Assembly: GCA_035709005.1 (NCBI GenBank)
Contig: DASTFB010000055.1
Coordinates: forward strand, 1-64,000
Direction: 5' to 3'
Origin: Candidatus Methylomirabilota bacterium
GTDB taxonomy: Bacteria > Methylomirabilota > Methylomirabilia > Rokubacteriales > CSP1-6
Length of the DNA: 64,000 nt
The translations under genes were made by a program, and so were the position numbers. Every line of letters starts with the position of its first letter. Position 1 is the first letter of the stretch. Below are positions 7,340-25,868 of the stretch, piece by piece. Below the pieces are notes generated by a model that did not search any database, was not told the DNA's origin, and was given only the letters and a program-made list of their open reading frames with translations.

Positions 7340-9676
7340 TCAGGCGGCGGGCGGCCGCGCCGCCTGCGCGCGCCGGATGGCTTCGCGGACGCGACCGGAT
7401 GTCGCCGGCATGTCGATGCTCTCCACTCCCAGGGGGCGTAGCGCATCCAGGATCGCGAGGATGACGGCCGGCGGCGCCCCGACCGAGCCGACCTCGCCCA
7501 GCCCTTTCACGCCCAGAGGGTTCGTCTTGCAAGGAATCTCGGCCAGGGCCACCGTGAAGGCCGGCAGATCGTCGCCTCTCGGCATGCAGTACTCGGCAAA
7601 GGTCGCCGACAGGTTCTGTCCGGACGAGCGGTCGTACACGACGTGCTCGAAGAGGGCCTGGCCGATGCCCTGGGCGAGGCCGCCGTGGAGCTGTCCCTCG
7701 CAGATCAAGGGATTGAGCGCGCGGCCGACGTCGTCCACGATGGTATAGCGCTCCAGCCGCACCTGGCCCGTCTCCGGATCGACCTCGACCTCGCCCACGT
7801 GCGCCGCGTTGGGAAAGTTCGGCGGCTCGGAGCCGAAGCTGCCGCTGGCCTCGAGACCGATGCCGAGCTCGGCCAGCGGCCCCGCCGGCGCGTAGGCCGC
7901 GCGCGCCACCGCCGCGAAGGGCATCGCGCGATCGGTGCCCACCACCCGGAAGGCGCCTGCCGAGAACGCGATGTCGGCGGGCGCGGCCTCCAGGAGGTGC
8001 GCGGCCACGCGGGTGGCCTTCTCGATGAGCGCGTCCGTGGCCGCCCGCAGGGCGTTGCCGCCCACCATGGAGCTGCGCGAGGCGTAGGTGCCCCGGCCGA
8101 AGGGGACCTGGTCGGTGTCGCCCTGCACGAAGCGGATGCTCTCGAACGGCACGCCCAGCCACTCCGAGACCATCTGCGCGTAGACGGTGGCGTGGCCCTG
8201 CCCGTGCGAGAAGGTGCCGGCGACGATGGTGACGGTACCGGAGGGGTCGCAGCGCAGCTCCATGCGCTCGTTGAAGACCCCGCTCTCCTCGAGCGAGAAG
8301 GCCAGTCCGCGTCCGCGCAGCTTGCCCCGTTGCCCGCTCGCCGCCTGCCGCGCCGGGAAGCCCTTCCAGTCCGCCAGGTCCAGACAGTGATCCATGATCC
8401 GGGCAAACTCGCCGCTGTCGTAGGTGAGGCCCGTGGGGATCCGGTGGGGCATGGCGTCGGGCCGGATGAAGTTGCGCCGGCGGATCTCGACGACGTCGAT
8501 GCCGGTGACCAGGGCCGCCCGATCCAGCAATCGCTCGGTGAGATAGACCGCCTCCGGCCGTCCGGCTCCGCGGTAGGGCGCCGTCGGCGAGGTGTGGGTG
8601 AAGACTGCCCGGGTGGTGAGGAAGACCGCCGGCACGGCATAGGCGCTGGGCACCAGCTGCACGGAGAAGAGCAGCGGTGCGACGGCGGCGCCGGCCACGT
8701 AGGCGCCGAAGCCCTGCAGGGCCCGGGCCCGGATCGCCAGCATGCGGCCCTGGGCGTCCAGCGCCATCTCGCCGTACACGACCTGGTCGCGCCCGTGAGC
8801 GTCGCCCAGCAGACTCTCCGATCGCGTCGCCGTCCACTTTACCGGCCGGCCGCAGCGCCGCGACGCCCACAGGACCAGCGCGTCCTCGGGATAGCCGTCG
8901 CCCTTCATGCCGAACCCTCCGCCGACGTCCGGGGCGATCACGCGGAGCTTCGTCTCCGGCAGCCGAAAGACCCGCTGGGCGATCGTGGTGCGGACACCGT
9001 GCGGGTTCTGCGTGCTGGTGTAGAGGGTGGCGGTGCCGTCCGGGTCCCAGGCGCCCAGCGCGCACCGCGGCTCCAGCGCGTTGGCCGAGATGCGGTTGTT
9101 CTCGAGACGCACCGACACCACGTGAGGGGCCCGGGCGAAGGCGGCGGCGGTTGCCGCCTCGTCGCCCATCCGGAGCTCCACGCACACATTGCCCGGGGCG
9201 TCGTCCCAGACGCGCACCGCCCCGTCGGCCACCGCATCCTCCACGTCCACGACGGCGGGCAGCGGCTCGTACTCCACCTCGACCAGCGCGGCGGCGTCGC
9301 GCGCCTGGGCGGCACTCTCCGCCACCACGAAGGCGACCCGATCGCCCACGTGGCGTACCCGATCGGCCGCGAGGATGGGCCGGAAGGTCCGGTGCCCTTT
9401 GGGGCCGCCACGGTCCTCGGGCATGAATAGCGGGGGCAGGCCGCCCAGGCCGTCGGCCACCACGTCGGCGCCGGTCAGCACGGCCAGCACGCCGTCGGCG
9501 GTCATGGCGTGGGACAGGTCGATGCGCGCGATGCGCGCGTGGGGATGCGGGGAGAGCACGACCGCGGCGTAGGCCTGGCGCGGCAGCGTGACGTCGTCGA
9601 CGTACCGTCCGCGGCCCGTGACGAAGCGCTGGTCCTCGACGCGCCGTACCGGCTGACCGATCCCGAAATCGCTCAT
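7340..9676 (-). CDS. Xanthine dehydrogenase family molybdopterin-binding large subunit (paralogue 1)
   Basis: 778 residues, full length for a CoxL/XdhB-type subunit. It has the N-terminal a/b-hammerhead (GQPVRRVEDQRFVTGRGRYV), the Moco-binding segment VGGGFGMKG, an active-site loop PYRGAGR near residue 365 resembling the AYRGAGR of form II CO-dehydrogenase-like enzymes rather than AYxCSFR of true CO dehydrogenase, and KGLGEVGSVGAPP near 726 with the expected catalytic glutamate. It should hydroxylate an aldehyde or heterocycle in the cytoplasm. No FAD (medium) or 2Fe-2S (small) subunit gene is adjacent. GAGG lies 8 bases before the ATG. Substrate unknown. Confidence 0.9.
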   Translation of the reverse strand: MSDFGIGQPVRRVEDQRFVTGRGRYVDDVTLPRQAYAAVVLSPHPHARIARIDLSHAMTADGVLAVLTGADVVADGLGGLPPLFMPEDRGGPKGHRTFRPILAADRVRHVGDRVAFVVAESAAQARDAAALVEVEYEPLPAVVDVEDAVADGAVRVWDDAPGNVCVELRMGDEAATAAAFARAPHVVSVRLENNRISANALEPRCALGAWDPDGTATLYTSTQNPHGVRTTIAQRVFRLPETKLRVIAPDVGGGFGMKGDGYPEDALVLWASRRCGRPVKWTATRSESLLGDAHGRDQVVYGEMALDAQGRMLAIRARALQGFGAYVAGAAVAPLLFSVQLVPSAYAVPAVFLTTRAVFTHTSPTAPYRGAGRPEAVYLTERLLDRAALVTGIDVVEIRRRNFIRPDAMPHRIPTGLTYDSGEFARIMDHCLDLADWKGFPARQAASGQRGKLRGRGLAFSLEESGVFNERMELRCDPSGTVTIVAGTFSHGQGHATVYAQMVSEWLGVPFESIRFVQGDTDQVPFGRGTYASRSSMVGGNALRAATDALIEKATRVAAHLLEAAPADIAFSAGAFRVVGTDRAMPFAAVARAAYAPAGPLAELGIGLEASGSFGSEPPNFPNAAHVGEVEVDPETGQVRLERYTIVDDVGRALNPLICEGQLHGGLAQGIGQALFEHVVYDRSSGQNLSATFAEYCMPRGDDLPAFTVALAEIPCKTNPLGVKGLGEVGSVGAPPAVILAILDALRPLGVESIDMPATSGRVREAIRRAQAARPPAA

Positions 9677-9779: not shown

Positions 9780-10700
9780 ATGCGGATCGCGGTCCCGCCC
9801 CCGGCCCAGACGCTCGACCTCGTCATGGGCGACGGCGCTGGCATCCGTGTCCGCCGTCACGGGCGGAGCGAGGCCGCCGTGCGGCTCGTCATGTCCAATG
9901 GTAACGGCTTCGCGATCGACGGGTACTACCCGTTCTGGGGCCCCCTCACCGACCGGTTCGAGATCGTCGTCTTCGACTTCCGCAACCACGGTCAGAATCC
10001 GCCCGCCGCGTCCGGGCGCGACGGCCACACGTACGCCCAGATGACGCTCGACCTCGACCGGGTCGTGCGCGAGGTCGGCGCGCGCTGGAGCGGCAAGCCG
10101 TGCGTCGGCGTGTTCCACTCCATGTCCGCCCGCACGGCGATGAAGCACGCCCTCGAGCTCGGCTTCCCCTGGCAGGCCCTGATCCTGTTCGATCCCCCCA
10201 ACGTGCCGCCTCCCGGCCATCGCACGTACGAGCTCATGGATGTCTTCGAGCACCGGCTCGCCGACTGGGCGATGCGCCGGCCGGACCGCTTCGCCGAGCC
10301 GTCGGAGCTGGCCCGGCAGTACGCGGAGACGCGCGCCCACGCCAACTGGGTGCCCGGCGCCCACGAGCTGATGGCCCGGGCCGTCCTGCGCCGCGGCGAC
10401 GCGGACGCCGGCTGGGTGCTGGCCTGCCCGCGGGAGCTGGAGGCCTCGATCTACCTGCAGGCGATGACCCTCAACCTCTGGCCGCCCGCCGACGCCTACG
10501 GCGGGCCGGTCAAGCTGATCGCCGCCGACCCGACGGTCCCCGGCGCCCCGGGTCCCGCCTTCGCCAACCGGGCGCTGGCCGAGGACTTCGGCTACGTGTA
10601 CGAGGCGATCCCGGGGACCGGCCACATGCTGCAGATCCAGAAGCCGGACGAGTGCCGCCGGGCGACGCTCAGCTTCCTCGCGGAGCTCGGCATCCGCTGA
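9780..10700 (+). CDS. Alpha/beta hydrolase fold protein
   Basis: 306 residues from the ATG at 9780. An in-frame start at 9675 is rejected because the extra residues would cross the promoter. The oxyanion region is MSNGNGFAIDGYYPFWGPL, the nucleophile elbow GVFHSMSARTAM (Ser in H-S-M-S, a variant of G-x-S-x-G), and the C-terminal catalytic histidine is in GTGHMLQIQKPDE. Cytoplasmic hydrolase of unknown ester, lactone or C-C substrate. It is divergent from molybdenum hydroxylase 1, and its last 32 bases overlap the convergent Rieske oxygenase gene. Confidence 0.85.
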   Translation: MRIAVPPPAQTLDLVMGDGAGIRVRRHGRSEAAVRLVMSNGNGFAIDGYYPFWGPLTDRFEIVVFDFRNHGQNPPAASGRDGHTYAQMTLDLDRVVREVGARWSGKPCVGVFHSMSARTAMKHALELGFPWQALILFDPPNVPPPGHRTYELMDVFEHRLADWAMRRPDRFAEPSELARQYAETRAHANWVPGAHELMARAVLRRGDADAGWVLACPRELEASIYLQAMTLNLWPPADAYGGPVKLIAADPTVPGAPGPAFANRALAEDFGYVYEAIPGTGHMLQIQKPDECRRATLSFLAELGIR

Positions 10701-12000
10701 CGCCGGCGACGAGGTGGGCCCTGGCGCCCTCCAGCCACGGCACGTCCTTGGGTAGCAGCACCGAGGCGGGGCGGATCAGGAACGAGGCGGCGTCCGTCCC
10801 CGGCGGCGGCGTCCGCCGGTCGCGCAGCGCCGTCGCCGCGTCCAGCAGACACTTGCGCACCCGGATGATGGCGATGTCGGCCTTTCCCAGGTGCTCCCGG
10901 GTGCGGTCGTACACGGGCCCCTGGCTCTCGGTGATCGCCTTGTCCTGGGCGCCCACGCCGGGGACCCCGAAGAACTTGCGGCCCTGGTGCGCCGCCCAAT
11001 CCATCGCGTAGTCGTTGCGCCGATCGGCGCGGGGCCGGATGTCGCCGTACGGCTCGCTGGTGGCGGGCGCGTAATCCAGGATGTGGATGCTGAGCCCGGC
11101 GCCCAACGCCGCTCGCTCCTCGGCCGTCAACGGCCGCGCGCCGTGCCAGGAGATGCACCAGTTCACCAGGTGCTCGTCGTCCACCGGCACCCAGACGTGC
11201 GAGTGCATGAGCGGGTCCGGGGTGGGATCGGTCGGGGGCAGGGTGTGAAACGGCATGTGGAATTGCGTGATGCGCCAGTAGCACATCCCGGCGCCGGTCT
11301 CGCGGCCGGCGGCGATCAGCATGCCGTAGTCGGCGTCCGCCACCTCCACGCGCGGCGCCCGCTCGAGCTGCGCGGCCAGCGCGAACCCGGCCGCGGCTTT
11401 GTCCAGCTCGCCGCGCAGGGCGTCGTCGCCGGCGTCCAGCACACCGTGCAGGAACGAGATGTGGGACGGGTCGATCCCGCCCTCGAGCCCCTGCAGATAA
11501 TTGCACTCCTGGTAGAACTTCGAGACGAAGCGCTGCTCGTCGGGGACCAGCGCCCACTCGAGGTCGGGCACAGCCGGCGGGGGATCGGCCGGCCCCATGT
11601 ACGTCCAGACGACGCCACCGCGCTCGGCGCACGGGTAGGCGGGATGGCGGACTTTGTCCGGGAAGCCGCTCTCCGGCGGCTCGTTGGGCATCTCCAGGCA
11701 CCGGCCGTCCGCGCCGAAGCGCCAGCCGTGGTACACGCACCGCAGGCCGTCCCCGTCGTTGCGGCCGAAGAAGAGCGAGGCGCCTCGATGCGAGCACGAT
11801 TCGCCGAGCAGCCCCACGCCGCCCTCGCGCGAACGGAACGCCACCAGGTCCTCGCCCAGGAGCTTGACGCGCTTGACCCGGCCGCCCGGCGCCAGCTCCG
11901 TCGAGAGCAGCGCCGGGATCCAGTACTGACGCATGAGCTGGCCCATGGGCGTGCCCGGCCCGACGCGGGTCAACAACTCGTTGTCCTGTCGGCTCAGCAT
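10669..12000 (-). CDS. Rieske-type aromatic ring-hydroxylating oxygenase, oxygenase subunit
   Basis: 443 residues. The Rieske 2Fe-2S cluster ligands are Cys69, His71, Cys88 and His91 (C-S-H...C-V-Y-H). The mononuclear iron site begins Asp177-His180-His185 in GGIDPSHISFLH, the D-x2-H-x4-H pattern. Overall it resembles phthalate 4,5-dioxygenase and related demethylases. These enzymes need a separate reductase, which is absent from this window. GGGAGAG precedes the ATG. It is the last gene of a minus operon after the thioesterase and metallo-hydrolase, and its 3' end overlaps the convergent alpha/beta hydrolase. Confidence 0.92.
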   Translation of the reverse strand: MLSRQDNELLTRVGPGTPMGQLMRQYWIPALLSTELAPGGRVKRVKLLGEDLVAFRSREGGVGLLGESCSHRGASLFFGRNDGDGLRCVYHGWRFGADGRCLEMPNEPPESGFPDKVRHPAYPCAERGGVVWTYMGPADPPPAVPDLEWALVPDEQRFVSKFYQECNYLQGLEGGIDPSHISFLHGVLDAGDDALRGELDKAAAGFALAAQLERAPRVEVADADYGMLIAAGRETGAGMCYWRITQFHMPFHTLPPTDPTPDPLMHSHVWVPVDDEHLVNWCISWHGARPLTAEERAALGAGLSIHILDYAPATSEPYGDIRPRADRRNDYAMDWAAHQGRKFFGVPGVGAQDKAITESQGPVYDRTREHLGKADIAIIRVRKCLLDAATALRDRRTPPPGTDAASFLIRPASVLLPKDVPWLEGARAHLVAGVSGCRAPRGS

Positions 12001-12006
12001 GGCTCG

Positions 12007-13047
12007 TCACTCTCCCTTCAGCACGTACATCGCGCCGACCGCGCTCGGCGCATACCGTCCGGGCGCGAAGGCCTGGGCCAGGGCCGCCTTGGCGCGCCAG
12101 CCCGTACAGTGTCCCGGCGCCACCACGCGCGGCCGCACCCGCCGGTCGAGGTCGCCCACCGTCGCCTCGATGCGGCGCTCCATCGCCTTGCCGCTGAGGT
12201 GGAAGCCGCCGAGCACCAGGTCCAGGGGGGCGCCGCCGAACGCGTCGCGGGCGCTCAGGCAGGCGTTGACCATCCCGGCGTGGGAGCAGGCCGAGAGCAC
12301 GCTGACGCCGCGGCCGCGCACCTGCCCGGCCAGGAACCGCTCGTCCAGGATCAGCGGATCGGGCTGGCCCCTGCCGTCGCGGAAGCTCAGATGGCCGACC
12401 AGGCCCTGCTCGTATGCCGTCACCCGCTCGATGGCGCCGCTGACGTAGAAGAAGCCCGCACCCAGCGTGTGCGGTTTGGCCTGCCGGTCCACGCGGGCGC
12501 CGGCCGCCTCGATCGCCTGGAACGTCGGCTCGGGGACGAGCAGGCGGATCGTACCGGTGGGGAGCTCGGTTCCGCGCTGGTCCGGGCGATCGGGGTGCAG
12601 ATCGGCGACCACCGGATCGGCGAGCCCGGCGCGCCGCCGGGCCTCGGTCACGGCCGCCACGGCGGTCGGCAGGGCGCCGCTGTGATCGAAGTGCCAGTGC
12701 GAGAGCACGACGGCCTCGACCCTGGTCAGGTCCACGCCCAGCTTTCGGACGTTCGCCGTCCACAGCTCGGGGTACGGCCCGGCGTCGAAGAGCACGGTGT
12801 GCTCCTCGTCACCGCGACGGCCGGTCACCAGCGCGGAAAAGCCGTGCCCGGCCCAGCACTGGCGATCGATGATCACCTTGCCGGGGTGGCCCTCGTGCAC
12901 CAGGCTCGTCGGGATCCGCGGTTCCAGGTGAGCGAGCTCGGAGAGCTGCGGCAGCCCCTCGTCCACGCTGGAGAGCGTGTCGGTCTCGTTGTCGACGATG
13001 ACCAGCACGCGGAGCTCGTCGAGCGCTACGGTTTGGGCCGGCGGCAT
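12007..13047 (-). CDS. Metallo-beta-lactamase fold metallo-hydrolase
   Basis: 346 residues. The metal-binding motif HWHFDHSG lies at 117-124 (His117, His119, Asp121, His122); later histidines are in SACSHAGMVN, LGGFHLSG and VVAPGHCTGW. The layout resembles the family annotated as 7,8-dihydropterin-6-methyl-4-(beta-D-ribofuranosyl)aminobenzene 5'-phosphate synthase homologues, whose bacterial members are mostly uncharacterised. The ATG at 13047 has GGGGAGA 6 bases upstream; the open frame continues further upstream into the thioesterase gene and is not used. It lies 6 bases from the Rieske gene start, so co-expression is likely. Confidence 0.87.
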   Translation of the reverse strand: MPPAQTVALDELRVLVIVDNETDTLSSVDEGLPQLSELAHLEPRIPTSLVHEGHPGKVIIDRQCWAGHGFSALVTGRRGDEEHTVLFDAGPYPELWTANVRKLGVDLTRVEAVVLSHWHFDHSGALPTAVAAVTEARRRAGLADPVVADLHPDRPDQRGTELPTGTIRLLVPEPTFQAIEAAGARVDRQAKPHTLGAGFFYVSGAIERVTAYEQGLVGHLSFRDGRGQPDPLILDERFLAGQVRGRGVSVLSACSHAGMVNACLSARDAFGGAPLDLVLGGFHLSGKAMERRIEATVGDLDRRVRPRVVAPGHCTGWRAKAALAQAFAPGRYAPSAVGAMYVLKGE

Positions 13048-13079
13048 GGCGTCTCCCCGGATGGCAAGGCTATCACGCG

Positions 13080-13955
13080 CTAGAGCTCGGCGGGCACGAG
13101 CAGCGCGCGGGCCCGGCTGGCCAGCCCGGCGGGCAGCGGAGCCGGCCGGCGCGCGTCCTGATCGAAGTGAACGCCGCTCTGGTGGAGCGTCGCCAGCTCC
13201 GCGCCCGTCCGCGTGTCGCTCATCACGTGGAAGAACCGCAGCGACGACGTTCCCACGTGCGTCACGGCTGAGCGGACGGTGACCAGCGTCCCTCGCGTGA
13301 GCGCGCGGGCGGCGCCGAACTGGAACTCGAACGTCGAGAAGCCGCGGCGGTGCTGGCGCATGTAGCCCGGCGTCAGTCCGAAGGCCGCCGCCACGTGCGA
13401 GTTGGCGGCGGAGAATCGGTGGACATAGGCGGCCAGCGCGCCGGGCAGCGAGCCCCCGGCTTCCCACGGCCGGATGGTGTCCCGCGCGCTCTCGCGCAGG
13501 CCGTCCAGGCTCTTGGGGCGCGCCCGGCGCTCGCGCGCCGGCCCGTCCCAGTCGGCTCGCCGGGCATGGAGCCGCTCGCGGTCGGCCGCCGCCAGCGAGG
13601 CGGGAGCGCCGTCGCGGCCGGTCAGGCGCAGCCGCTGCTCGAACGTCGTGACGACCTCCCCGGTGCCGGTGTCGGTGAGCTTGTGGCCGGCCACCAGACC
13701 GTCCGGCTCCACGGCGATCAGGGCGCTGCTCACGTGGATGATGTCGCCGGCCCGTAGCTCGCGCACGTAGCGCACGTGGCAGTCCGCGGTGACCCAGCTC
13801 TGCCCGTTGCTCTCCGGCGGAAGGCCCAGGGCGTCGAGCAGCGCCAGCGTCGCGTCGCCGAGTCGCGCGAAGTAGTAGGCGACCGTCAGGTGGTCGTTGT
13901 GGTCGACTTCCCAGCGGTAGACGACGCCACGGTAGGTCTCGAGCCAGGCGTCCAC
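13080..13955 (-). CDS. Double hot-dog thioesterase-like protein (acyl-CoA thioester hydrolase family)
   Basis: 291 residues from a GTG at 13955. It contains two 4HBT-like halves: RWEVDHNDHLTVAYYFARLGDA with the typical Asp-x-x-x-His start of a hot-dog domain, and FSTFEFQFGAARALTRGTLVTV near residue 190 followed by RSAVTHVGTSSLRFFHVMSD. The likely role is hydrolysis of an acyl-CoA, possibly a hydroxybenzoyl-CoA type; inference only. The start codon is 8 bases after a TAGAAT and has no Shine-Dalgarno, suggesting a leaderless message. First gene of the operon with the metallo-hydrolase and the Rieske oxygenase. Confidence 0.75.
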   Translation of the reverse strand: MDAWLETYRGVVYRWEVDHNDHLTVAYYFARLGDATLALLDALGLPPESNGQSWVTADCHVRYVRELRAGDIIHVSSALIAVEPDGLVAGHKLTDTGTGEVVTTFEQRLRLTGRDGAPASLAAADRERLHARRADWDGPARERRARPKSLDGLRESARDTIRPWEAGGSLPGALAAYVHRFSAANSHVAAAFGLTPGYMRQHRRGFSTFEFQFGAARALTRGTLVTVRSAVTHVGTSSLRFFHVMSDTRTGAELATLHQSGVHFDQDARRPAPLPAGLASRARALLVPAEL

Positions 13956-13963
13956 GCCGGGGG

Positions 13964-13969
13964 ATTCTA
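13964..13969 (-). promoter_or_regulatory. Putative -10 element, leaderless geometry
   Basis: TAGAAT on the minus strand, 8 bases before the GTG at 13955. No convincing -35 is visible, so support rests on the -10 and its spacing. Confidence 0.35.
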
Positions 13970-14003
13970 CTACGCCGCCGCGCCGCGATCCGGACGCGTG
14001 CGC

Positions 14004-14032
14004 TTGACCGGGGTCGGGCGCTGCCCTAGCCT
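14004..14032 (+). promoter_or_regulatory. Sigma-70-like promoter for the DUF169/HpaB operon
   Basis: TTGACC (14004-14009), 17-base spacer, TAGCCT (14027-14032). The transcript would have a leader of about 30 bases containing the strong Shine-Dalgarno before 14071. Confidence 0.5.
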
Positions 14033-14070
14033 CTGCCCATCGACCACGCCGTCGCACGAGGAGAGGGAGT

Positions 14071-14856
14071 ATGAGCGAGCGCTACGACTGGCAGGCGATC
14101 GTCGCCGGCCTGAACCGTTACCTCCGGTTGAGATCGATCCCCGTGGGCATGAAGCTGTTCGAGACGCAGGAGGCGATGGAGGCGATTCCCCGCATCCGCC
14201 GGCCCACGCGCAAGCACACGACCGACCAGATCGTGGCCCAGGCCCGTCAGCTCGGCTGGACCGTCGGCATCACCATGGCCGACCTGGTCGGGGCGCAGTG
14301 CGGCGCGGTCATCGGACTGCATCCCCAGGACGAGGAGTGGCTCTCCGGCCGCCGCATGGCCGGCGTGTGGTTCCAGACCGTGGAGGACGCCGCCGCCCAC
14401 CAGCGGGCCATGGACTGCGTGCCCCACGGCCGCTACGCCGCCATGGCCGTCTCGCCGCTCACGTCCGGGCGGCTGGACCCGCCCGACATCTGCCTCGTCT
14501 ACGGCACGCCGGGGCAGATGATTTTCTTCATCAACGGCCTGCAGTGGTCGGGCTACCGGAAGCTGTCGTTCACGTCGGTGGGCGAGTCGGCGTGCGCCGA
14601 CTCCTGGGGCCGGGCGCTGCGCACGGGCGAGCCGTCGCTGACGATTCCCTGCTACGCCGAGCGGCGCTACGGCGGCGTCGCGGACGACGAGCTGCTCATG
14701 GCGCTGCCGCCGCACTACCTGCCTCGAGTGCTGGAAGGTCTGGCCGCCCTGGACCGCAACGGCCTCAGGTACCCGATTCCCCCCTGGGGCATCCAGGCCG
14801 ACGCCACTGCCGGGCTGGCGGTCAGCTACGCGGAGAAGGGGACGCCGTCCCGCTGA
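14071..14856 (+). CDS. DUF169 domain-containing protein
   Basis: 261 residues. The DUF169 signature is the C-terminal block GESACADSWGRALRTGEPS followed by IPCYAERRYGGVADDEL; conserved cysteines also occur in GAQCGAVIG. DUF169 proteins have no firmly established function and often sit beside catabolic or transport genes. AGGAGAGGGAG precedes the ATG. It opens a four-gene plus operon with an HpaB-type hydroxylase, an enamidase-like amidohydrolase and a VOC dioxygenase. No signal peptide or membrane segment is visible, so it is probably cytoplasmic. Confidence 0.85.
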   Translation: MSERYDWQAIVAGLNRYLRLRSIPVGMKLFETQEAMEAIPRIRRPTRKHTTDQIVAQARQLGWTVGITMADLVGAQCGAVIGLHPQDEEWLSGRRMAGVWFQTVEDAAAHQRAMDCVPHGRYAAMAVSPLTSGRLDPPDICLVYGTPGQMIFFINGLQWSGYRKLSFTSVGESACADSWGRALRTGEPSLTIPCYAERRYGGVADDELLMALPPHYLPRVLEGLAALDRNGLRYPIPPWGIQADATAGLAVSYAEKGTPSR

Positions 14857-14869
14857 GGGGCGGGGGAGT

Positions 14870-14898
14870 TTGTCATTGCCGGCGCGCTGTGGCAAGGT
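14870..14898 (+). promoter_or_regulatory. Weak internal promoter candidate before the HpaB-type gene
   Basis: TTGTCA (14870-14875), 17-base spacer, CAAGGT (14893-14898), then 9 bases to the ATG at 14908, the same geometry as the leaderless promoters. The -10 is poor. Confidence 0.2.
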
Positions 14899-14907
14899 GG
14901 GCCCGCC

Positions 14908-16347
14908 ATGCGCACCGGGGACGCCTACGTCGCCAGCCTGCGGGACGGCCGGGCGGTGTTCCTGGACGGCGAGCGGGTGAAGGACGTCACCGGGCACCCG
15001 GCCTTCGCCGAGCCCATCCGCCGGATCGGCCGGACGTACGACCGCGCCCACGCCGCGGCAAGCGACCCCACGCTCACGTTCGCCGACGCAGCGGGCACGC
15101 GTCACAGTCACATGTGGCTCGTCCCGCGCTCCCCCGACGACCTGGCCGCGCGCCGCCGCGTGCACCGGTTCTGGGCCGAGCCGTCCTACGGCCTGATGGG
15201 GCGCACCCCCGACCACGTCGCCTGCGTGCTCACGGCCTTCGCGTCCTGGCGGCAGCTCTTCGACCGGGGCGGCCGGCGCTTCGGCGACAGCGTGGTGCGC
15301 TTCTACGAGCGGGCCCGGGACGAGGATCTCTACCTGGCCTACGCGATCGTGCCGCCCCAGGTGGACCGCTCCCAGCCGGCGCATCGCCATCCCGAGCCCT
15401 TCCTGCATCCGGGCATCGTGCGGGAGACCGACGCCGGCATCGTGGTACGGGGGGCCCAGGCCATCGCGACCTCGGCCACCATGGCCGACTGGCTGTTCCT
15501 CTCCTACATCACGCCGCTCGTTCCGGGCGACGAGGACTACGCGATCTCCCTCGTCGTGCCGATGAATGCCCCGGGACTGCGTCTGTACCCGCGCCGGCCC
15601 TACGCCACCACCGCCACCAGCACCTTCGACTATCCGCTCTCGGCCCGGTTCGACGAGGTCGACACCACCGTGGTCTTCGACGACGTGCTCGTGCCCTGGG
15701 AGCAGCTGTTCATCTACCGGAACGTGGAGCTGGTGAACGCGCAGTTCCACGAGACGCCCTCGCACGCCACGGCGAACTTCCAGTCCCTCGTCCGCTTCGG
15801 CGTGAAGCTCGAATTCCTGGCCGGCCTGGCCGTGCGGCTGGCCGAAGTGCAGCGAGCCGAGGGCGACCCCGGCGTGCAGGCCACGCTGGGCGGCGACATC
15901 GCGGCGCTGTGCGCGGCCTTCGACGCGCTGGTGGCGGCGGCCGAGCGCTTCCCGCTCGTCACCGACGGCGTGGCCCGGCCGCACCCGCAGTACATCTATG
16001 CCGGCATGTCCCTGCAGCGCCGGCTCATCGTCGACATGATGCGCACGCTGCGCGAGCTGGCCGGGGGCGCCTTCCAGGCCCTGCCGTCCTCGGAGGCGGC
16101 CTTCCTCGGCGCCGAGACCCGGGCCGACACCGAGCGCTACTACCAGTCGGCCGCGGCCGGGGCCCGCGAGCGCGTCAAGCTGCTGAAGCTGGTCTGGGAC
16201 TTCGTCGGCACCGAGTTCGCCGGACGGCAGCTGCAGTACGAGATGTTCTACTCGGCCTCCCAGCCGGTGGTGAACCGGCGGATGTTCAAGGCCTACGACT
16301 GGCAGGCGGCCAGGGCCGTGGTGGACGACTGCCTGGGCGAGCCCTGA
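14908..16347 (+). CDS. 4-hydroxyphenylacetate 3-hydroxylase (HpaB) family flavin-dependent monooxygenase
   Basis: 479 residues, the size expected for the oxygenase component of two-component FADH2-dependent phenol hydroxylases. Family features are the N-terminal RTGDAYVASLRDGRAVFLDG, the acyl-CoA-dehydrogenase-like core with GLMGRTPDHVACVLTAF, and the flavin-side FDYPLSARFDEVDTTVVFDD. These enzymes ortho-hydroxylate phenolic rings, and relatives dehydrate 4-hydroxybutyryl-CoA. No HpaC-type flavin reductase lies nearby. The start overlaps no upstream gene, and the stop overlaps the next ATG by one base (TGATG), giving tight coupling to the enamidase-like gene. Confidence 0.87.
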   Translation: MRTGDAYVASLRDGRAVFLDGERVKDVTGHPAFAEPIRRIGRTYDRAHAAASDPTLTFADAAGTRHSHMWLVPRSPDDLAARRRVHRFWAEPSYGLMGRTPDHVACVLTAFASWRQLFDRGGRRFGDSVVRFYERARDEDLYLAYAIVPPQVDRSQPAHRHPEPFLHPGIVRETDAGIVVRGAQAIATSATMADWLFLSYITPLVPGDEDYAISLVVPMNAPGLRLYPRRPYATTATSTFDYPLSARFDEVDTTVVFDDVLVPWEQLFIYRNVELVNAQFHETPSHATANFQSLVRFGVKLEFLAGLAVRLAEVQRAEGDPGVQATLGGDIAALCAAFDALVAAAERFPLVTDGVARPHPQYIYAGMSLQRRLIVDMMRTLRELAGGAFQALPSSEAAFLGAETRADTERYYQSAAAGARERVKLLKLVWDFVGTEFAGRQLQYEMFYSASQPVVNRRMFKAYDWQAARAVVDDCLGEP

Positions 16348-17549
16348 TGGCCTCGCTGGGCCTGGTCAACGTCGGCGCCCTGGCCACCGGCATCCTGACG
16401 GCGCCCCGGCTGGAGGCCGAGGCCATCCTGGTGGAGGACGGGCGCATCGCGGCCATCGGCGCCGCCGCGCGGACGGGCGCCAGCGCGGCCGACGTCGTCG
16501 TGGACTGCCGGGGCACCACGGTGATGCCCGGCCTCATCGACTCGCACTGCCACGTGGTGCTGGGCGACTACACGCCGCGCCAGAAGACGGTGGACTTCCT
16601 CGACTCCTACGTGCACGGGGGCATCACGTCCGTCGTCTCGGCCGGCGAGGGCGTGCACGCGCCGGGCCGGCCCCACGATCCGGCGGCGGTCAAGGCCCTG
16701 GCCATCGCCGCCGCCAAGTGCTTCGAGCACTTCCGTCCCAACGGCATGAAGGTGAATGCCGGCTCGGTGGTGCTGGAGCCCGGGTTGACCGACGACGACT
16801 TCGCCGAGATGGCGAGGCACGGCGTCCGTCACGCCAAGTACGGCTTCGGCGGCTACGCCCGGCCCGAAGACGGCGCCCCCGAGGTGCGGCGGGCCCAGAA
16901 GCACGGGCTCTGCGTCATGTCGCACAGCGGCGGGACCTCGATTCCCGGCTCGAGCCCCATCAGCCACGAGATCCTGCTGCAGCTGCGGCCCGACGTGTGC
17001 GGCCACGTCAACGGCGGCACCACCTCGCTGGACGAGGCGGGGCTCGACGCGATCATCCGGGAGACCGACATGGCCCTGCAGGTGGTGCAGGCGGGCAACC
17101 TCCGCTCGGCGCTCTATATATTGAAGCGCTGCCGCGAGGTGGGCGCGCTGCCCCGGCTCTGCGTGGCCAGCGACACGCCCACGGGGACGGGCGTCATGCC
17201 GATGGGGGTGCTCAAGAGCGTCTGCGAGCTGGCCTCGCTCGGCGATCTGGCCCCGGCCGAAGCCATCGCGCTGGCCACCGGCAACAACGCCCGGGCCTTC
17301 CGCCTGGCGTCCGGCACGGGGACCATCGCCGTGGGGGCGCCGGCCGACCTTCTCGTCTGCGACGCCCCGGCCGCCTCGCTGGCCCGCGACGCCTTCGAGG
17401 CCATCGCCCGCGGCGATATTCCCGGCATCTCGTGCGTGATCATCGACGGCGAGGGGCGCGTGGGCCGCAGCCGCAACACGCCGCTGGCCAAGCGCCTGGC
17501 CGGGGTCGACGGCCGGGCCGCCGGCACGCAGAGCCACACCACACACTGA
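16347..17549 (+). CDS. Enamidase-like amidohydrolase
   Basis: 400 residues. The metal site begins GLIDSHCHVV; downstream come SAGEGVHAPGRPHDP, KHGLCVMSHSGGTSIPGSS, CGHVNGGTTSLDE, ASDTPTGTGVMPMGVL and the C-terminal GDIPGISCVIIDGEG then SRNTPLAKR. From memory, these blocks line up closely with Eubacterium barkeri enamidase, which opens a tetrahydronicotinate ring in nicotinate fermentation; the alignment was not computed. The ATG overlaps the upstream stop (TGATG). Its position between a flavin monooxygenase and a VOC dioxygenase suggests degradation of an N-heterocycle or cyclic amide, which is inference. Confidence 0.83.
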   Translation: MASLGLVNVGALATGILTAPRLEAEAILVEDGRIAAIGAAARTGASAADVVVDCRGTTVMPGLIDSHCHVVLGDYTPRQKTVDFLDSYVHGGITSVVSAGEGVHAPGRPHDPAAVKALAIAAAKCFEHFRPNGMKVNAGSVVLEPGLTDDDFAEMARHGVRHAKYGFGGYARPEDGAPEVRRAQKHGLCVMSHSGGTSIPGSSPISHEILLQLRPDVCGHVNGGTTSLDEAGLDAIIRETDMALQVVQAGNLRSALYILKRCREVGALPRLCVASDTPTGTGVMPMGVLKSVCELASLGDLAPAEAIALATGNNARAFRLASGTGTIAVGAPADLLVCDAPAASLARDAFEAIARGDIPGISCVIIDGEGRVGRSRNTPLAKRLAGVDGRAAGTQSHTTH

Positions 17550-17560
17550 AGGAGACGATC

Positions 17561-18508
17561 ATGCCACTCATCAAAGTGACCGACCTCGCGTACGGGCGTC
17601 TGCGGGCGCCGGACCTGGACGTCATGGAGGAGTTCCTGACTCACTTCGGGATGATCCGATCGGCCCGGACGAATACCGCGCTCTACATGCGGGGCACCGA
17701 CCCGCCTCACCACCTCCACGTGACGGAGAAGGGCGATCCGGCCTTCGTGGGCTTCGCGTACTACGCGGCGAGCGAGGAGGACCTGCACCGGGTGGCCCGG
17801 GCGCCGGGGGCCTCGGCGGTGGAGAAGATGGACGAGCCGGGCGGAGGCCAGCGCGTCCGGCTGCGCGAGCCCAACGGCTACCAGATCGAGGTCGTGTACG
17901 GCATCGAGCGACTGGCGCCGGTTGCCGTGGAGCGGGATCCCATGAACACGGGCGCCGAGCCGCTCCGGCGTCCGGGCAAGCTCATGCGGCTGTCGACCTC
18001 ACCGGCGCCGATCAAGCGCATCGGCCACGGGGTGATGGGCTCGCCGAAGGTGCGGGAGACGGTCCAGTGGTTCCGCGAGACGCTGGGGTTCCTCTGCTCG
18101 GATGACGTCTATGCGGGCGACAAGGACAACCTCATCGGCTCGTTCAACCGCTGCGACCGCGGTGACGAGTACGTCGATCACCACGTCTTCTTCTGCGTGC
18201 ACAACGAGCGGGCGGGCCTCAGCCACCTGTCGTTCGAGGTCCCGGACATCGACGCGGTGTTCAAGGATCACGAGTATCTGATGCGCCTCGGGAAGTACGA
18301 GCACATGTGGGGGGTCGGCCGGCACCTGCTGGGCAGCCAGGTCTACGACTACTGGGCCGACCCGTGGCGCCGGACGCACGAGCGGTGGGCGGACACCGAT
18401 CGCCTGAACGCGAAGAGCGGCTCCAACCTGTTGCCGGCGCACGAGGCGCTCCGGAGCCAGTGGGGCACCGATCCGCCGCAGAAGTTCCTGGGCCACGTGA
18501 GCCCCTGA
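17561..18508 (+). CDS. VOC-family protein, extradiol (catechol 2,3-dioxygenase-like) type
   Basis: 315 residues with two vicinal-oxygen-chelate halves (about 1-125 and 145-300), as in type I extradiol dioxygenases. Candidate metal ligands are His in KRIGHGVMGSP, His in AGLSHLSFEVPD and a glutamate in RRTHERW, the usual H-H-E order. AAGGAG sits 7 bases before the ATG, 11 bases after the enamidase-like gene. It would cleave a catechol made by the upstream HpaB-type hydroxylase; this coupling is inferred from gene order. Confidence 0.84.
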   Translation: MPLIKVTDLAYGRLRAPDLDVMEEFLTHFGMIRSARTNTALYMRGTDPPHHLHVTEKGDPAFVGFAYYAASEEDLHRVARAPGASAVEKMDEPGGGQRVRLREPNGYQIEVVYGIERLAPVAVERDPMNTGAEPLRRPGKLMRLSTSPAPIKRIGHGVMGSPKVRETVQWFRETLGFLCSDDVYAGDKDNLIGSFNRCDRGDEYVDHHVFFCVHNERAGLSHLSFEVPDIDAVFKDHEYLMRLGKYEHMWGVGRHLLGSQVYDYWADPWRRTHERWADTDRLNAKSGSNLLPAHEALRSQWGTDPPQKFLGHVSP

Positions 18509-18515
18509 CTCAGGG
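18503..18515. terminator. Palindrome spanning both stop codons of convergent genes
   Basis: CCCTGA-C-TCAGGG: the TGA of the VOC gene and the reverse-strand TGA of the oxidoreductase are one base apart and form the arms. Too short and lacking a T tract to be sure it terminates. Confidence 0.25.
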
Positions 18516-19517
18516 TCGGAGCACGACCTTCCCCGTCCCCGAGCGGTCGGCGACGATCCGGTGGGCGAGCGCCGCCTCGGCCAGCGGGAGCACGCGGTCG
18601 ACGAGCACGCGATAGCGGCCGTCGGCCGCGGCGCGCAGGCTGCGCTCGAGATCCTCCGGCGTGATGCGCCCGACCGAGCCGATGACCGTGATGGAGTTCA
18701 GGTACAGGTGCTTCACGTCGAGGGGGACCGTCCCGCCGCCGTGAGCACCCGCGGTGATCAGCCGTCCGCCCCGGGCCAGGCAGGCCAGGGCCCTGGGGAA
18801 GAGCTCGGCGTCGGCGATGTTCTCGAAGACGACATCGACCCCCCGCCCGTGGGTGATCCGCCGGACCTCGGCCGTCAGGTCCTGCGTCCGGTAGTTGATG
18901 CCGGCCTCGGCGCCGAGATCGACGGCGGCCCGGACGCGTTCGTCGGCGCCGGCCGCCGCGATGGCCCTGGCCCCCAGGCTCCTGGCCAGCTGGACGCCGG
19001 CCGCCCCGAGCCCGCCCGCGGCGCCCATCACCAGCACCCACTCGCCGGCGCCGAGCCGGGCGTCGTCCCGCAGCATGGTCAGCGCGACGGGGGCGTGGCG
19101 CGCGACCACCGTGGCCGTCACGAAGTCGACGCCGTCGGGAATCGGGTGCGTGACCGCGACCGGCACCTTGACGTACTCGGCGTAACCACCCCAGGCGTGC
19201 ACGCCGAGCAGCACCGGACCCGCCGTCGCGGTGGCCGGCTGCAGGAGCTGCATGGTGACGACGCGATCGCCGGCGTTGCGGGCGGTGACGCCGGGGCCGA
19301 CGGCGGCCACCACGCCGGACGGATCGACGCCCAGGACGTGAGGGAGCGTGACCGGCGTCGCGTAGATCCCGGCGCGGACGGCCAGATCGAGCGTCCGGTT
19401 CACCGACACCGCCTGCACCCGGACCACCACCTCGCCCGGGCCGGGCGCCGGCGTGGGGATCTCCTCGAGCCGTAGCACCTCGGGCGGCCCGAATTCGCGC
19501 AGCACGATGGCCTTCAT
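18510..19517 (-). CDS. Zinc-independent quinone oxidoreductase/alcohol dehydrogenase family (MDR)
   Basis: 335 residues from the ATG at 19517; upstream in-frame sequence lies within the permease gene. The N-terminal MKAIVLREFGPPEVLRLEE and the Rossmann motif VLVMGAAGGLGAAGVQLA are typical of NADPH quinone oxidoreductases and crotonyl-CoA-reductase-like MDR proteins. The structural-zinc cysteine cluster is absent. It is the last gene of the minus operon downstream of the sugar-type ABC permeases (5-base gap), perhaps acting on the imported compound or its product. Confidence 0.88.
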   Translation of the reverse strand: MKAIVLREFGPPEVLRLEEIPTPAPGPGEVVVRVQAVSVNRTLDLAVRAGIYATPVTLPHVLGVDPSGVVAAVGPGVTARNAGDRVVTMQLLQPATATAGPVLLGVHAWGGYAEYVKVPVAVTHPIPDGVDFVTATVVARHAPVALTMLRDDARLGAGEWVLVMGAAGGLGAAGVQLARSLGARAIAAAGADERVRAAVDLGAEAGINYRTQDLTAEVRRITHGRGVDVVFENIADAELFPRALACLARGGRLITAGAHGGGTVPLDVKHLYLNSITVIGSVGRITPEDLERSLRAAADGRYRVLVDRVLPLAEAALAHRIVADRSGTGKVVLRP

Positions 19518-19522
19518 GCAAC

Positions 19523-20344
19523 TCACTCGCGGACTGCGCCCGCCAGCAGCCCGCGCACGAGGTGCCGCTGCAGGACGAGCACGATGAGGATGGGGGGAAG
19601 ACTGGCCAGCATCGAGGCGGCCGCGATGTCTCCCCACGGGACCTCGTACACGCCGGGGAAGAGGGCGAGGGCCACGGGCACGGTACGGCTCGCTTCGGTC
19701 GCGGTGAACGTGTAGGCGAACAGGAACTCGTTCCAGCTGAACAGGAACGTGAGGAGCGCCGTGGAGGCCAGGCCAGGGGCCAGGAGCGGCAGCACGATCC
19801 GGCCGAGCGTCTGCGTCGTGCTCGCCCCGTCCACGGCCGCGGACTCCTCGAGGGCGTGCGGGATCTCCCGGATGAAGCCGGCCAGCAGCCAGATGGTCAA
19901 CGGCAGCGCGAATGACGTATGGGCCAGGACGAGCGCCATCCAGGTGTCGCGCAGCCCCAGCGAGCGGAGGATCAGGTAGAGGGGGCTGACCGTGGCGATC
20001 TGAGGAAAGGCCGTGCTCCCCACGATCGCCAGGAGCAGGAGGTTCTTGCCCGGCACGGCCAGGCGGGCGATGCCATAGGCGGCGGGCACGCCGAGCGCCA
20101 GCGCCAGCAGCGTGGTGAGGCTGGCGATGCCGAAGCTGTTGGCCAGCGCCCGGGGAATGAGGCTCTGCTCGAGCACGACTCGATAGTGATCGAGCGTCAG
20201 CCGCGTGGGTAAGAGCGGCGGCAGGCGGAGCAGCTCGGCTTCCGGCTTGAACGAGGTCAGGAGCTGCCAGAAGAACGGCACCGCGTAGGCGGCCAGGCCG
20301 AGCAGGACGAGCGCGTCGGGCAGGGCGTGGACCAGCCGCTTCAC
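19523..20344 (-). CDS. Carbohydrate-type ABC transporter permease (MalG/UgpE-like)
   Basis: 273 residues with about six membrane segments. The EAA loop ALEESAAVDGASTTQTLGRI (about residues 186-205) identifies a CUT1 inner-membrane permease. The GTG at 20344 overlaps the stop of the first permease as GTGA, giving translational coupling. It works with the permease at 20341-21213 and the binding lipoprotein at 21210-22523. No ATPase gene lies in the cluster; in CUT1 systems an unlinked MsmK/UgpC-type ATPase can be shared. Confidence 0.92.
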   Translation of the reverse strand: MKRLVHALPDALVLLGLAAYAVPFFWQLLTSFKPEAELLRLPPLLPTRLTLDHYRVVLEQSLIPRALANSFGIASLTTLLALALGVPAAYGIARLAVPGKNLLLLAIVGSTAFPQIATVSPLYLILRSLGLRDTWMALVLAHTSFALPLTIWLLAGFIREIPHALEESAAVDGASTTQTLGRIVLPLLAPGLASTALLTFLFSWNEFLFAYTFTATEASRTVPVALALFPGVYEVPWGDIAAASMLASLPPILIVLVLQRHLVRGLLAGAVRE

Positions 20345-23462: not shown

Positions 23463-25868
23463 ATGGGCTACGTCGGCCAGAGCCTCAAGCGGCGCGAGGA
23501 TGAGCGGCTGGTGCGGGGCCGCGGCTTCTTCGTGGCCGACGTCCAGCGTCCCGGTTCCCTGCACCTGGCCGTCGTCCGCAGCCCGCACGCCCACGCGCGC
23601 ATTCGCGCCATCGACACCGCCGCCGCGCGCCGGCAGCCGGGCGTCGTCGGCGTCGTGATATTCGCCGACCTGCCCGAGCTGGCCCGCCCGATCCCGATGC
23701 GCATGTCCGATCGCGGCCGCATGCACCGGTACCTGCAGCACCCGCTGGCCAGCGACACGGTCCGCTACGTGGGGGAGCCGGTGGTGGCCGTCGTGGCCGA
23801 GAGCCGCTACCTGGCCGAGGACGCGCTCGACGAGATCAGGATCGATTACGACCCGCTGCCCGCCGTGGTCGACGCGCGGGCGGCCAGCCAGCCCGGCGCG
23901 CCGCTGCTCTTCGAGGCCGAGGCGACGAACGTCGTGGCCACCTACACGATCGCTTGCGGCGACGTCGAGCGAGCCTTCCAGCACGCCGACGTCGTCGTCC
24001 GCGAGAGCCTGGCCGTCCAGCGGCACACGGCGGTCCCCATGGAGACCCGCGGGGCCATCGCCGAATACGACCCCGGCCGGCGGGTGCTCAGCATGTGGGG
24101 CATGACCAAGGTGCCGCACTGGAATCGCGGCGTCATCGCCGAGCACGTGGGGCTGCCCGAGCACTGCGTGCATCTCCTCCAGATGGACGTGGGCGGGGCC
24201 TTCGGCGTGCGGGGCGAGCTCTATCCCGAGGACTTCCTGGTCGCCCTCCTGGCCCTCAGGACGGGCCGGCCCGTCCGCTGGATCGAGGATCGGCGCGAGC
24301 ACCTCATGGCCGCCAACCATTCCCGCGAGCAGCAGCACGAGATCGCCGTGGCCCTCCGTCGTGACGGCACGATCCTCGGCATCCACGACCGGTTCTGGAA
24401 CAACATGGGCGCCTACGTGCGCACCCACGGCGCCACCGCCCCCAACAACACGGCGGGCTATCTCCCCGGACCGTACCGCATCGCGAACTACCGGGCCGAG
24501 GTGACGTGCGTGGTGACCGACAAGACGCCGGCCGGCACCTACCGGGCGCCGGGCCGGTTCGAGGCGAGCTTCGTGCGCGAACGGGTGGTCGACATGGCCG
24601 CCCGCGCGCTCGGGCTGGACCCGGCCGAGATCCGCCGCCGCAATTTCGTCCCGGCCACCGCCATGCCCTACGAGGTCGGTACGACCACGCTGGGACGCAA
24701 GATCGTCTACGACAGCGGCGACTTCCCCCGGCTCTTCGCGTGGGCGCTGGAGCGCGCCGGGTACGCGACGCTGCGCGAGGAGCAGGCCCGCGCCCGGCTG
24801 GCCGGACGGCACGTCGGCATCGGCCTCGCCTACGTCGTGGAGAAGTCCGGCCTCGGCCCCTGGGAGACGGCCCGGGTCCTGATCGACGGCTCCGGCCGCG
24901 TGGTCGTGCACACCGGCGTACCCTCTGTGGGTCAGGGCGTGGAGACGATCTTCGCCCAGGTGTGCGCCGACGTCCTCGGCGTGCGCTACGAAGACGTCAC
25001 CGTGCGGTGGGGCGACACCGACGCGCTGCCCGACGGCTTCGGCGCGTTCGCCAGCCGGGGCACCGTCATGGGGGCCAACGCCGTGGTCCAGGCGGCCGAG
25101 CGCGTGCGCGACAAGGTACTGGCCGTGGCGGCCCGCGAGCTGGAGGCGCATCCCGACGACCTGGAGCTGCGCGACGCCGCCGTGCGGGTGCGGGGCGTGG
25201 CCGACCGCGCCCTCACGCTGCGCGACGTGGCCCGCGCGGCGATGCCGACGCCGGCGCTGGCCGCCGGTCTGGAGCCCGGTTTGGAAGCGCTCGAGTACTA
25301 CCAGCAGGAGAAGATGACGTACGGCCACGGCCTGCACCTGGCCGTCGTCGAGGTCGACGCCGAGACCGGCGTGCCGACGATCCTGCGCTACGTCGTCGCT
25401 TACGACGTGGGCCGGTCGATCAACCCGATGCTGGTGGAAGCGCAGATCGTCGGCGGCCTCGCCCAGGGTCTGGGCGCCGCGCTGCACGAGGAGCTCGCGT
25501 ACGACGCGGCCGGCCAGCTCCTCACGGGGACGCTCATGGAGTACCACATCCCGGCCGCCGCCGACCTGCCACCGCTCGAGGTGTGGATCCGCGAGGAAGA
25601 CCGCTCGCCGGTGAACCCGCTGGGCGTGAAGGGCGCGGGCGAAGACGGGATCGTCGCCGCGGGCGCCGCCGTCGCCAACGCGGTGGCCGACGCGCTGGCG
25701 CCCATGGGCATCGAGATCACCGCGCTGCCGCTCCGTCCGGCCCGGGTGCGAGAGCTGATCCGGGCCGCCGCTCCGAACCCCGACGCGGTCCTCGAGCCCG
25801 CGCGCGCTACGTCTGCTGCCGGAGCTGCGGGTCCAGCAGATCGCGCAGCCCGTCCCCCAGGAAATTGA
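23463..25868 (+). CDS. Xanthine dehydrogenase family molybdopterin-binding large subunit (paralogue 2)
   Basis: 801 residues. It carries VGGAFGVRG (Moco binding), the loop TYRAPGRFEASF near residue 359, VGQGVETIFAQV, and KGAGEDGIVAAG near 724 with the catalytic glutamate. The sequence is visibly closest to the paralogue at 37840; both share WIEDRREHLMA and NHSR. AAGGAG precedes the ATG. No medium or small subunit is adjacent. The last 62 bases, an Ala/Pro-rich tail beyond the normal family end, overlap the convergent permease gene. Confidence 0.9.
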   Translation: MGYVGQSLKRREDERLVRGRGFFVADVQRPGSLHLAVVRSPHAHARIRAIDTAAARRQPGVVGVVIFADLPELARPIPMRMSDRGRMHRYLQHPLASDTVRYVGEPVVAVVAESRYLAEDALDEIRIDYDPLPAVVDARAASQPGAPLLFEAEATNVVATYTIACGDVERAFQHADVVVRESLAVQRHTAVPMETRGAIAEYDPGRRVLSMWGMTKVPHWNRGVIAEHVGLPEHCVHLLQMDVGGAFGVRGELYPEDFLVALLALRTGRPVRWIEDRREHLMAANHSREQQHEIAVALRRDGTILGIHDRFWNNMGAYVRTHGATAPNNTAGYLPGPYRIANYRAEVTCVVTDKTPAGTYRAPGRFEASFVRERVVDMAARALGLDPAEIRRRNFVPATAMPYEVGTTTLGRKIVYDSGDFPRLFAWALERAGYATLREEQARARLAGRHVGIGLAYVVEKSGLGPWETARVLIDGSGRVVVHTGVPSVGQGVETIFAQVCADVLGVRYEDVTVRWGDTDALPDGFGAFASRGTVMGANAVVQAAERVRDKVLAVAARELEAHPDDLELRDAAVRVRGVADRALTLRDVARAAMPTPALAAGLEPGLEALEYYQQEKMTYGHGLHLAVVEVDAETGVPTILRYVVAYDVGRSINPMLVEAQIVGGLAQGLGAALHEELAYDAAGQLLTGTLMEYHIPAAADLPPLEVWIREEDRSPVNPLGVKGAGEDGIVAAGAAVANAVADALAPMGIEITALPLRPARVRELIRAAAPNPDAVLEPARATSAAGAAGPADRAARPPGN

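Follow-up and report, generated by a model that had tools for sequence, protein, structure and literature searches.

The conserved unit in this stretch of DNA consists of two genes, for an HpaB-type flavin monooxygenase and an enamidase-like amidohydrolase, that are inherited together in a lineage of uncultivated soil Rokubacteria and that probably serve the opening of nitrogen-containing rings. Each enzyme carries a residue change with respect to its characterised relatives, a lysine for a glutamate in the hydrolase and a swapped tyrosine/histidine pair in the monooxygenase. The window, the whole stretch of 64,000 nts that was analysed, comes from a Candidatus Rokubacteria genome of 4.59 Mb that is 95% complete. 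The genes on either side of the pair, for a DUF169 protein and a two-domain VOC protein, are its later neighbours, and the cluster that results is a mosaic, arranged in this way only in this genome.

The preliminary description had presented the four genes as a tightly packed operon. Their presence, positions and families are as it gave them (open frames and Pfam matches agree), and the order on the + strand is DUF169, HpaB-type, amidohydrolase, VOC. The TGATG coupling that it reported between monooxygenase and amidohydrolase is confirmed, the stop and start codons overlapping at 16345-16349, and 11 nts separate the amidohydrolase from the VOC gene, which has an AGGAG-like ribosome site before it. 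Packing is tight for these three genes but not at the 5′ end, where 51 nts lie between DUF169 and HpaB, and this gap holds an element also conserved at the HpaB starts of relatives without DUF169 there. A single four-gene operon is not borne out. The gene set is not conserved, and when 12001-20000 is compared with relatives by BLASTN the similarity falls into three gene-exact blocks, each matching different places, with the DUF169 and VOC orthologues positioned elsewhere. The neighbourhood comparison that had been proposed as a check is divided in its outcome: HpaB and the amidohydrolase stay together, DUF169 and VOC do not. Scans for sigma-70 promoters and for terminators found none. The part of the window from 7340 to 43006 is a region dense in catabolic genes.

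Table. Positions of the genes, the upstream element, the homology blocks and other catabolic genes in the window.
Feature	Position	Strand	Basis or context
DUF169 (PF02596) protein	14071..14856	+	Pfam; orthologue positions
Element TTTGTCAT-N14-GGCAAGGT, near-dyad TTGTCA...TGGCAA	14869..14898	+	window count, shuffles, relatives
HpaB-type (group D) flavin monooxygenase, R99-H103-Y145	14908..16347	+	Pfam, PDB matches, residue comparison
Enamidase-like amidohydrolase, Lys164 type	16347..17549	+	Pfam, PDB match, tree, residue alignment
Two-domain VOC protein, type I extradiol dioxygenase-like	17561..18508	+	Pfam, profile models, triad alignment
Homology block 1 (DUF169)	14075-14844		BLASTN vs relatives
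Homology block 2 (element, HpaB, amidohydrolase)	14859-17523		BLASTN vs relatives
Homology block 3 (VOC)	17549-18503		BLASTN vs relatives
Xanthine-dehydrogenase-type Mo hydroxylase large subunits (n=4)	7340-9676, 23463-25868, 29914-32271, 37840-40161		
LigXa-like Rieske protein	10669-12000		within 7340-43006 catabolic region
Amidase	32274-33698		within 7340-43006 catabolic region

Orthologues of the DUF169 protein (80-88%; Pfam E 1e-40 for the window protein) are mostly found in an S4-DUF169-CobU-CobT-CobB-BtuD-BtuB locus, and of 20 genomes in which the gene could be placed, 15 have it between the S4-domain gene and CobU-CobT. The S4-CobU-CobT locus of the window genome, on contig C51, has no DUF169 in between, and so the gene has moved to its present site. 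It is a lineage-specific neighbour, relocated from the cobalamin locus, and probably not a core member of the HpaB-amidohydrolase unit; the proposal that it is a functional member of the pathway is weakened by its cobalamin-locus home. A PDB search gave no sequence relative of it, and none of the literature matches gave a function. Its regular membership of a Rokubacteria cobalamin salvage/uptake locus (L128-L136, L151-L153, L155-L158) is a lead to function. At L137 and L154 it is at yet other places, and in two genomes of another genus (L061 and L066) the orthologue adjoins a Glu-type enamidase-like gene. DUF169 has moved beside an enamidase-family gene in two genera, once of the Lys type and once of the Glu type.

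The VOC gene was recruited downstream of the pair in this genome. It has orthologues in 15 other genomes, and in the six of these that were inspected they are unlinked to the amidohydrolase and near other genes; plasmid relatives accompany fumarylacetoacetate hydrolases. The naming as an extradiol-type dioxygenase holds: besides a Pfam Glyoxalase match (8e-07), HpaD and catechol 2,3-dioxygenase models span the protein, which has two VOC domains, and alignment gives a putative metal triad, H156-H222-E274 (2-His-1-Glu). It is far below all cut-offs of the named equivalogs HpaD, C23O and BphC.

Conservation is of a different order for the pair. Within the phylum 27 HpaB places were surveyed in 26 genomes, and at 23 of them the downstream sequence is long enough for a verdict. 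The Lys-type amidohydrolase directly follows HpaB in 18 of these 23, so that the reported juxtaposition of an enamidase-like enzyme with an oxygen-dependent flavin monooxygenase is a conserved feature of Rokubacteria. There are exceptions: the amidohydrolase is missing from at least five HpaB places, and HpaB from the surroundings of a few amidohydrolases. The 30-bp element in the 51-nt gap occurs once in the window and in none of its shuffles. The exact element is just before HpaB at 16 of the 18 loci with the amidohydrolase and at none of the five without; it is missing from L187 and L193 despite their amidohydrolase, and from the amidohydrolase-less L188, L190, L195, L196 and L199. It has a near-dyad form and is a candidate promoter or operator of the pair. 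In the usual Rokubacteria locus a divergently oriented Liv-type ABC transporter precedes the pair, and Mo-hydroxylase genes often follow it. The window genome has no orthologue of that transporter, the best match being 33%.

The amidohydrolase (Pfam Amidohydro_3/1, E 1e-13 and 3e-12) matches the Eubacterium barkeri enamidase (EC 3.5.2.18), PDB 2vun, over residues 6-385 with E 3.8e-113 and 48% identity, and the second-best PDB family is far behind (E 2e-8). Since it matches the enamidase in this way, placement with imidazolonepropionase or another family, which had been named as the finding that would count against the assignment, is not what is seen; 2vun is the only strong PDB match, the HutI model failed and the tree agrees. 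HutI identity is ruled out by a TIGR01224 score of 53.7 against a cut-off of 298 bits (the genome has a separate HutI of its own, on contig C50), and PDB search and profile scores reject any other amidohydrolase family. An AlphaFold model with a mean pLDDT of 53 was left out of the analysis.

What the window enzyme shares with the enamidase of nicotinate fermentation is the family, the ligand residues (the HxH of His67 and His69, His193, His220 and Asp276) and the motifs GDYxPRQK, GGTSIPGS and GN. It differs in having Lys164 (codon 16836-16838) in place of Glu164, an oxygenase as partner, no hydroxynicotinate reductase beside it, and a different clade. Position 164 of enamidase is, we take it, the strand-4 ligand that bridges the two metals and that in the superfamily is usually a carboxylated lysine. 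With the position a presumed metal ligand, the replacement of Glu164 by lysine is plausibly a switch of metal-site subtype. The tree of relatives splits by this residue, with support of 0.988 for the Glu164 clade, which contains the E. barkeri enzyme, genes of Comamonadaceae and Sulfitobacter, and a second Rokubacteria group. Lys164 is found in the window gene, all its group I orthologues and another, third group of Rokubacteria, and likewise in relatives from Thermomicrobium, Rhodococcus, Lentzea, rhizobia and an NC10 bacterium. The root of this tree is soft, as the HutI outgroup is one sequence with an uncertain N-terminus.

Lys164 marks clades found with oxygenases and not with 6-hydroxynicotinate reductase. 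Among the neighbourhoods inspected no such reductase is seen beside a Lys-type gene, and Lys-type relatives are also near Rieske dioxygenases; Glu-type relatives on Comamonadaceae and Sulfitobacter plasmids adjoin 6-hydroxynicotinate reductase or ferredoxin reductase genes, together with Mo-hydroxylase genes. By Pfam, the Glu-type group of Rokubacteria has a Liv transporter, amidohydrolase, DUF1015, AA_synth, luciferase-like monooxygenase and Mo-hydroxylase subunit, and in the third Rokubacteria group a luciferase-like monooxygenase and a Mo-hydroxylase subunit are beside the amidohydrolase. In this phylum enamidase relatives are thus repeatedly found with flavin monooxygenases, and these are of two unrelated kinds. 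(The Glu-type genes at L053, L061, L068 and L070 have AA_synth, PF06684, and a Mo-hydroxylase subunit near them, several also DUF1015 and the luciferase-like monooxygenase.)

The monooxygenase has both domains of its family at full length (HpaB_N 4e-87, HpaB 1e-45), the architecture of HpaB and chlorophenol 4-monooxygenase, which are two-component FAD enzymes, and its best PDB match has E 4e-82. It departs from those enzymes in three ways: its NCBIfam HpaB equivalog scores are below the cut-offs (290 bits against 480, and 260 against 885), no reductase is linked to it, and the catalytic residues are Arg-His-Tyr and not Arg-Tyr-His. In FAD-dependent HpaB, binding of the phenol and removal of its proton fall to Arg100, Tyr104 and His142 (PMC10537072). 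R99-H103-Y145 stands for these residues of the T. thermophilus protein, with the Tyr/His pair swapped. The swapped form is also found in the Rokubacteria orthologues and in the seven more distant relatives examined, from a same-order genome, Arthrobacter, Caballeronia, Roseateles, Thioclava, Paracoccus and Rhizobium; Arg-Tyr-His is present in Thermus HpaB proteins, in chlorophenol monooxygenase 4oo2 and in a Streptomyces relative. Tree support for the Arg-His-Tyr clade is 1.0 around the window protein and 0.15 at the base, so it is the shared residues and not the tree that carry the grouping.

C-N hydrolases adjoin HpaB in six of these seven distant relatives. In Caballeronia, Roseateles, Thioclava and Paracoccus the neighbours are an amidase, a cupin and DUF2848, in Rhizobium an amidase, a CE4 deacetylase and an amidohydrolase, and in the same-order genome aspartoacylase-like, M20 and LamB/YcsF genes. 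Beside the Arthrobacter HpaB (L085) are a cupin, DUF2848 and a flavin reductase, and no amidase was found there. Two control relatives with Arg-Tyr-His have no C-N hydrolase neighbours, and a Thermus HpaB relative adjoins a catechol 2,3-dioxygenase. No flavin reductase is linked to the window HpaB, the only two PF01613 genes of the genome being on other contigs. Clusters of flavin reductase, HpaB, cupin, amidase and DUF2848 are carried by Proteobacteria plasmids (L086, L087, L088 and L170), with a Liv ABC transporter annotated near three of them.

Several described routes resemble the pair in part. In aerobic breakdown of pyridine by PyrA/PyrC of Arthrobacter sp. 68b, ring opening by a flavin monooxygenase is reportedly followed by amide hydrolysis, a likeness in reaction logic. 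The imide hydrolase of Aspergillus is CE4-like. In nicotinate breakdown by Aspergillus a cyclic imide hydrolase acts and then an amidase, and C-N opening of 2,3,6-trihydroxypyridine is reported in some bacteria (PMC9304392). In 4-hydroxypyridine catabolism by the kpi cluster of Arthrobacter sp. IN13 a flavin monooxygenase, KpiA, is likewise followed by an amidohydrolase-family ring opener, KpiC, for which oxygen-dependent ring cleavage is reported and whose sole characterised near relative is enamidase, at 28% (PMC7356986). That enamidase is known from anaerobic nicotinate fermentation, as the preliminary description had it, is correct but incomplete: an aerobic THON route is reported in Azorhizobium and a THON-type cluster in Bradyrhizobiaceae (PMC3511419). 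These systems share with the pair an aerobic host, an enamidase-type step and an ABC uptake system, but a reductase dearomatises the ring there, where the window pair has an oxygenase (PMC3511419). Because the aerobic THON route and the Arthrobacter monooxygenase/amidohydrolase ring opener are already published, the pair is a variation on known kinds and not a wholly new system. No described pathway with an HpaB and enamidase-like pair was found in a literature whose coverage was incomplete.

The reading that is tentatively favoured, at somewhat under an even chance, is that HpaB oxygenates an N-heterocycle, which the amidohydrolase then opens by hydrolysis of a C-N bond. The two enzymes, driven by their own upstream element, would form the functional unit, and a flavin reductase encoded elsewhere would feed HpaB. 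HpaB would hydroxylate an N-heterocyclic or cyclic-amide substrate to a non-aromatic product, or to one with a lactam or imide tautomer such as a di- or trihydroxypyridine (a trihydroxypyridine, whose keto tautomer is a cyclic imide, would agree with known chemistry). The amidohydrolase would then break the C-N bond by hydrolysis, the reaction of enamidase on tetrahydro-6-oxonicotinate, but at a metal site in which a probably carboxylated lysine replaces glutamate. VOC, added behind the pair, may serve to cleave a side product or later product of the catechol type. The gene identities, the conservation of the pair, the two residue changes and the mosaic history are shown by the sequences; the class of substrate, the sequence of steps, the lysine carboxylation and the part played by VOC are inferred. 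Consistent with this are the 2vun match and kept motifs, the 18 of 23 adjacencies and shared element, the C-N hydrolases beside Arg-His-Tyr HpaB elsewhere and their absence beside the Arg-Tyr-His controls, the other Rokubacteria enamidase-like clades with luciferase-like monooxygenases and Mo hydroxylases, and the Liv-type uptake systems beside the usual Rokubacteria locus. Against it count the unpaired HpaB and amidohydrolase places, the lack of a linked flavin reductase, Arthrobacter L085 without an amidase, and the Rieske dioxygenases by Lys-type relatives, which also fit non-nitrogenous substrates; no known reaction was found for any enzyme of either variant subfamily.

Those Rieske dioxygenases are also part of the case for meta-cleavage of a nitrogen-free phenol, in which HpaB would make a catechol, VOC cleave it and the amidohydrolase open a lactone or ring-cleavage product. 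The H-H-E triad of a type I extradiol enzyme, the fumarylacetoacetate hydrolases with plasmid relatives of VOC, and the catechol 2,3-dioxygenase beside the Thermus HpaB relative fit as well. However, VOC is outside the conserved unit, this HpaB subfamily elsewhere associates with amidases and not with ring-cleavage dioxygenases, and the swapped Tyr/His pair is the one that handles the phenol hydroxyl; meta-cleavage is unlikely. It is a little more doubtful still that the pair is a THON-pathway variant, with the hydrolase opening 1,4,5,6-tetrahydro-6-oxonicotinate and HpaB serving a side step. The 48% identity, the kept pocket motifs, the existence of an aerobic THON route (PMC3511419) and the reductase beside Glu-type relatives speak for it, but the window gene is outside the well-supported Glu164 clade, to which the E. 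barkeri enamidase and the genes linked to the reductase belong, and the Lys-type genes inspected have no 6-hydroxynicotinate reductase by them.

The KpiC precedent, an amidohydrolase-family enzyme nearest to enamidase and following a flavin monooxygenase (PMC7356986), raises the prospect that the window amidohydrolase itself carries out oxygen-dependent cleavage of the HpaB product. This is improbable: at 48% as against 28% it is much nearer to enamidase, it keeps all the other hydrolytic metal ligands, and KpiA belongs to a different flavin monooxygenase family (PF01494). Just as poor a prospect is a chance arrangement of the four neighbours in which the HpaB-hydrolase pair alone would be meaningful, in whatever way. 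The three homology blocks, the relocated DUF169 and the missing Liv-transporter orthologue agree with it, but VOC is on the same strand only 11 nts after the hydrolase, and the fact that in another genus, too, a DUF169 orthologue moved beside an enamidase-like gene, there of the Glu type, hints at a link.

Oxygenation followed by hydrolytic C-N opening would, if correct, give uncultivated soil Rokubacteria a concrete and testable means of using nitrogen-containing rings. It is conceivable, on a distinctly tentative footing, that the swapped His/Tyr HpaB and the lysine-type enamidase relative make up an undescribed aerobic ring-opening route, with parallel Rokubacteria versions that use luciferase-like monooxygenases. 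Two functional subfamilies, the Lys-type enamidase relatives and the Arg-His-Tyr HpaB proteins, would also be added to families in which annotation by best hit would mislead on the reaction, and residue 164 (Glu or Lys) together with the Tyr/His swap would be simple sequence marks for its correction.
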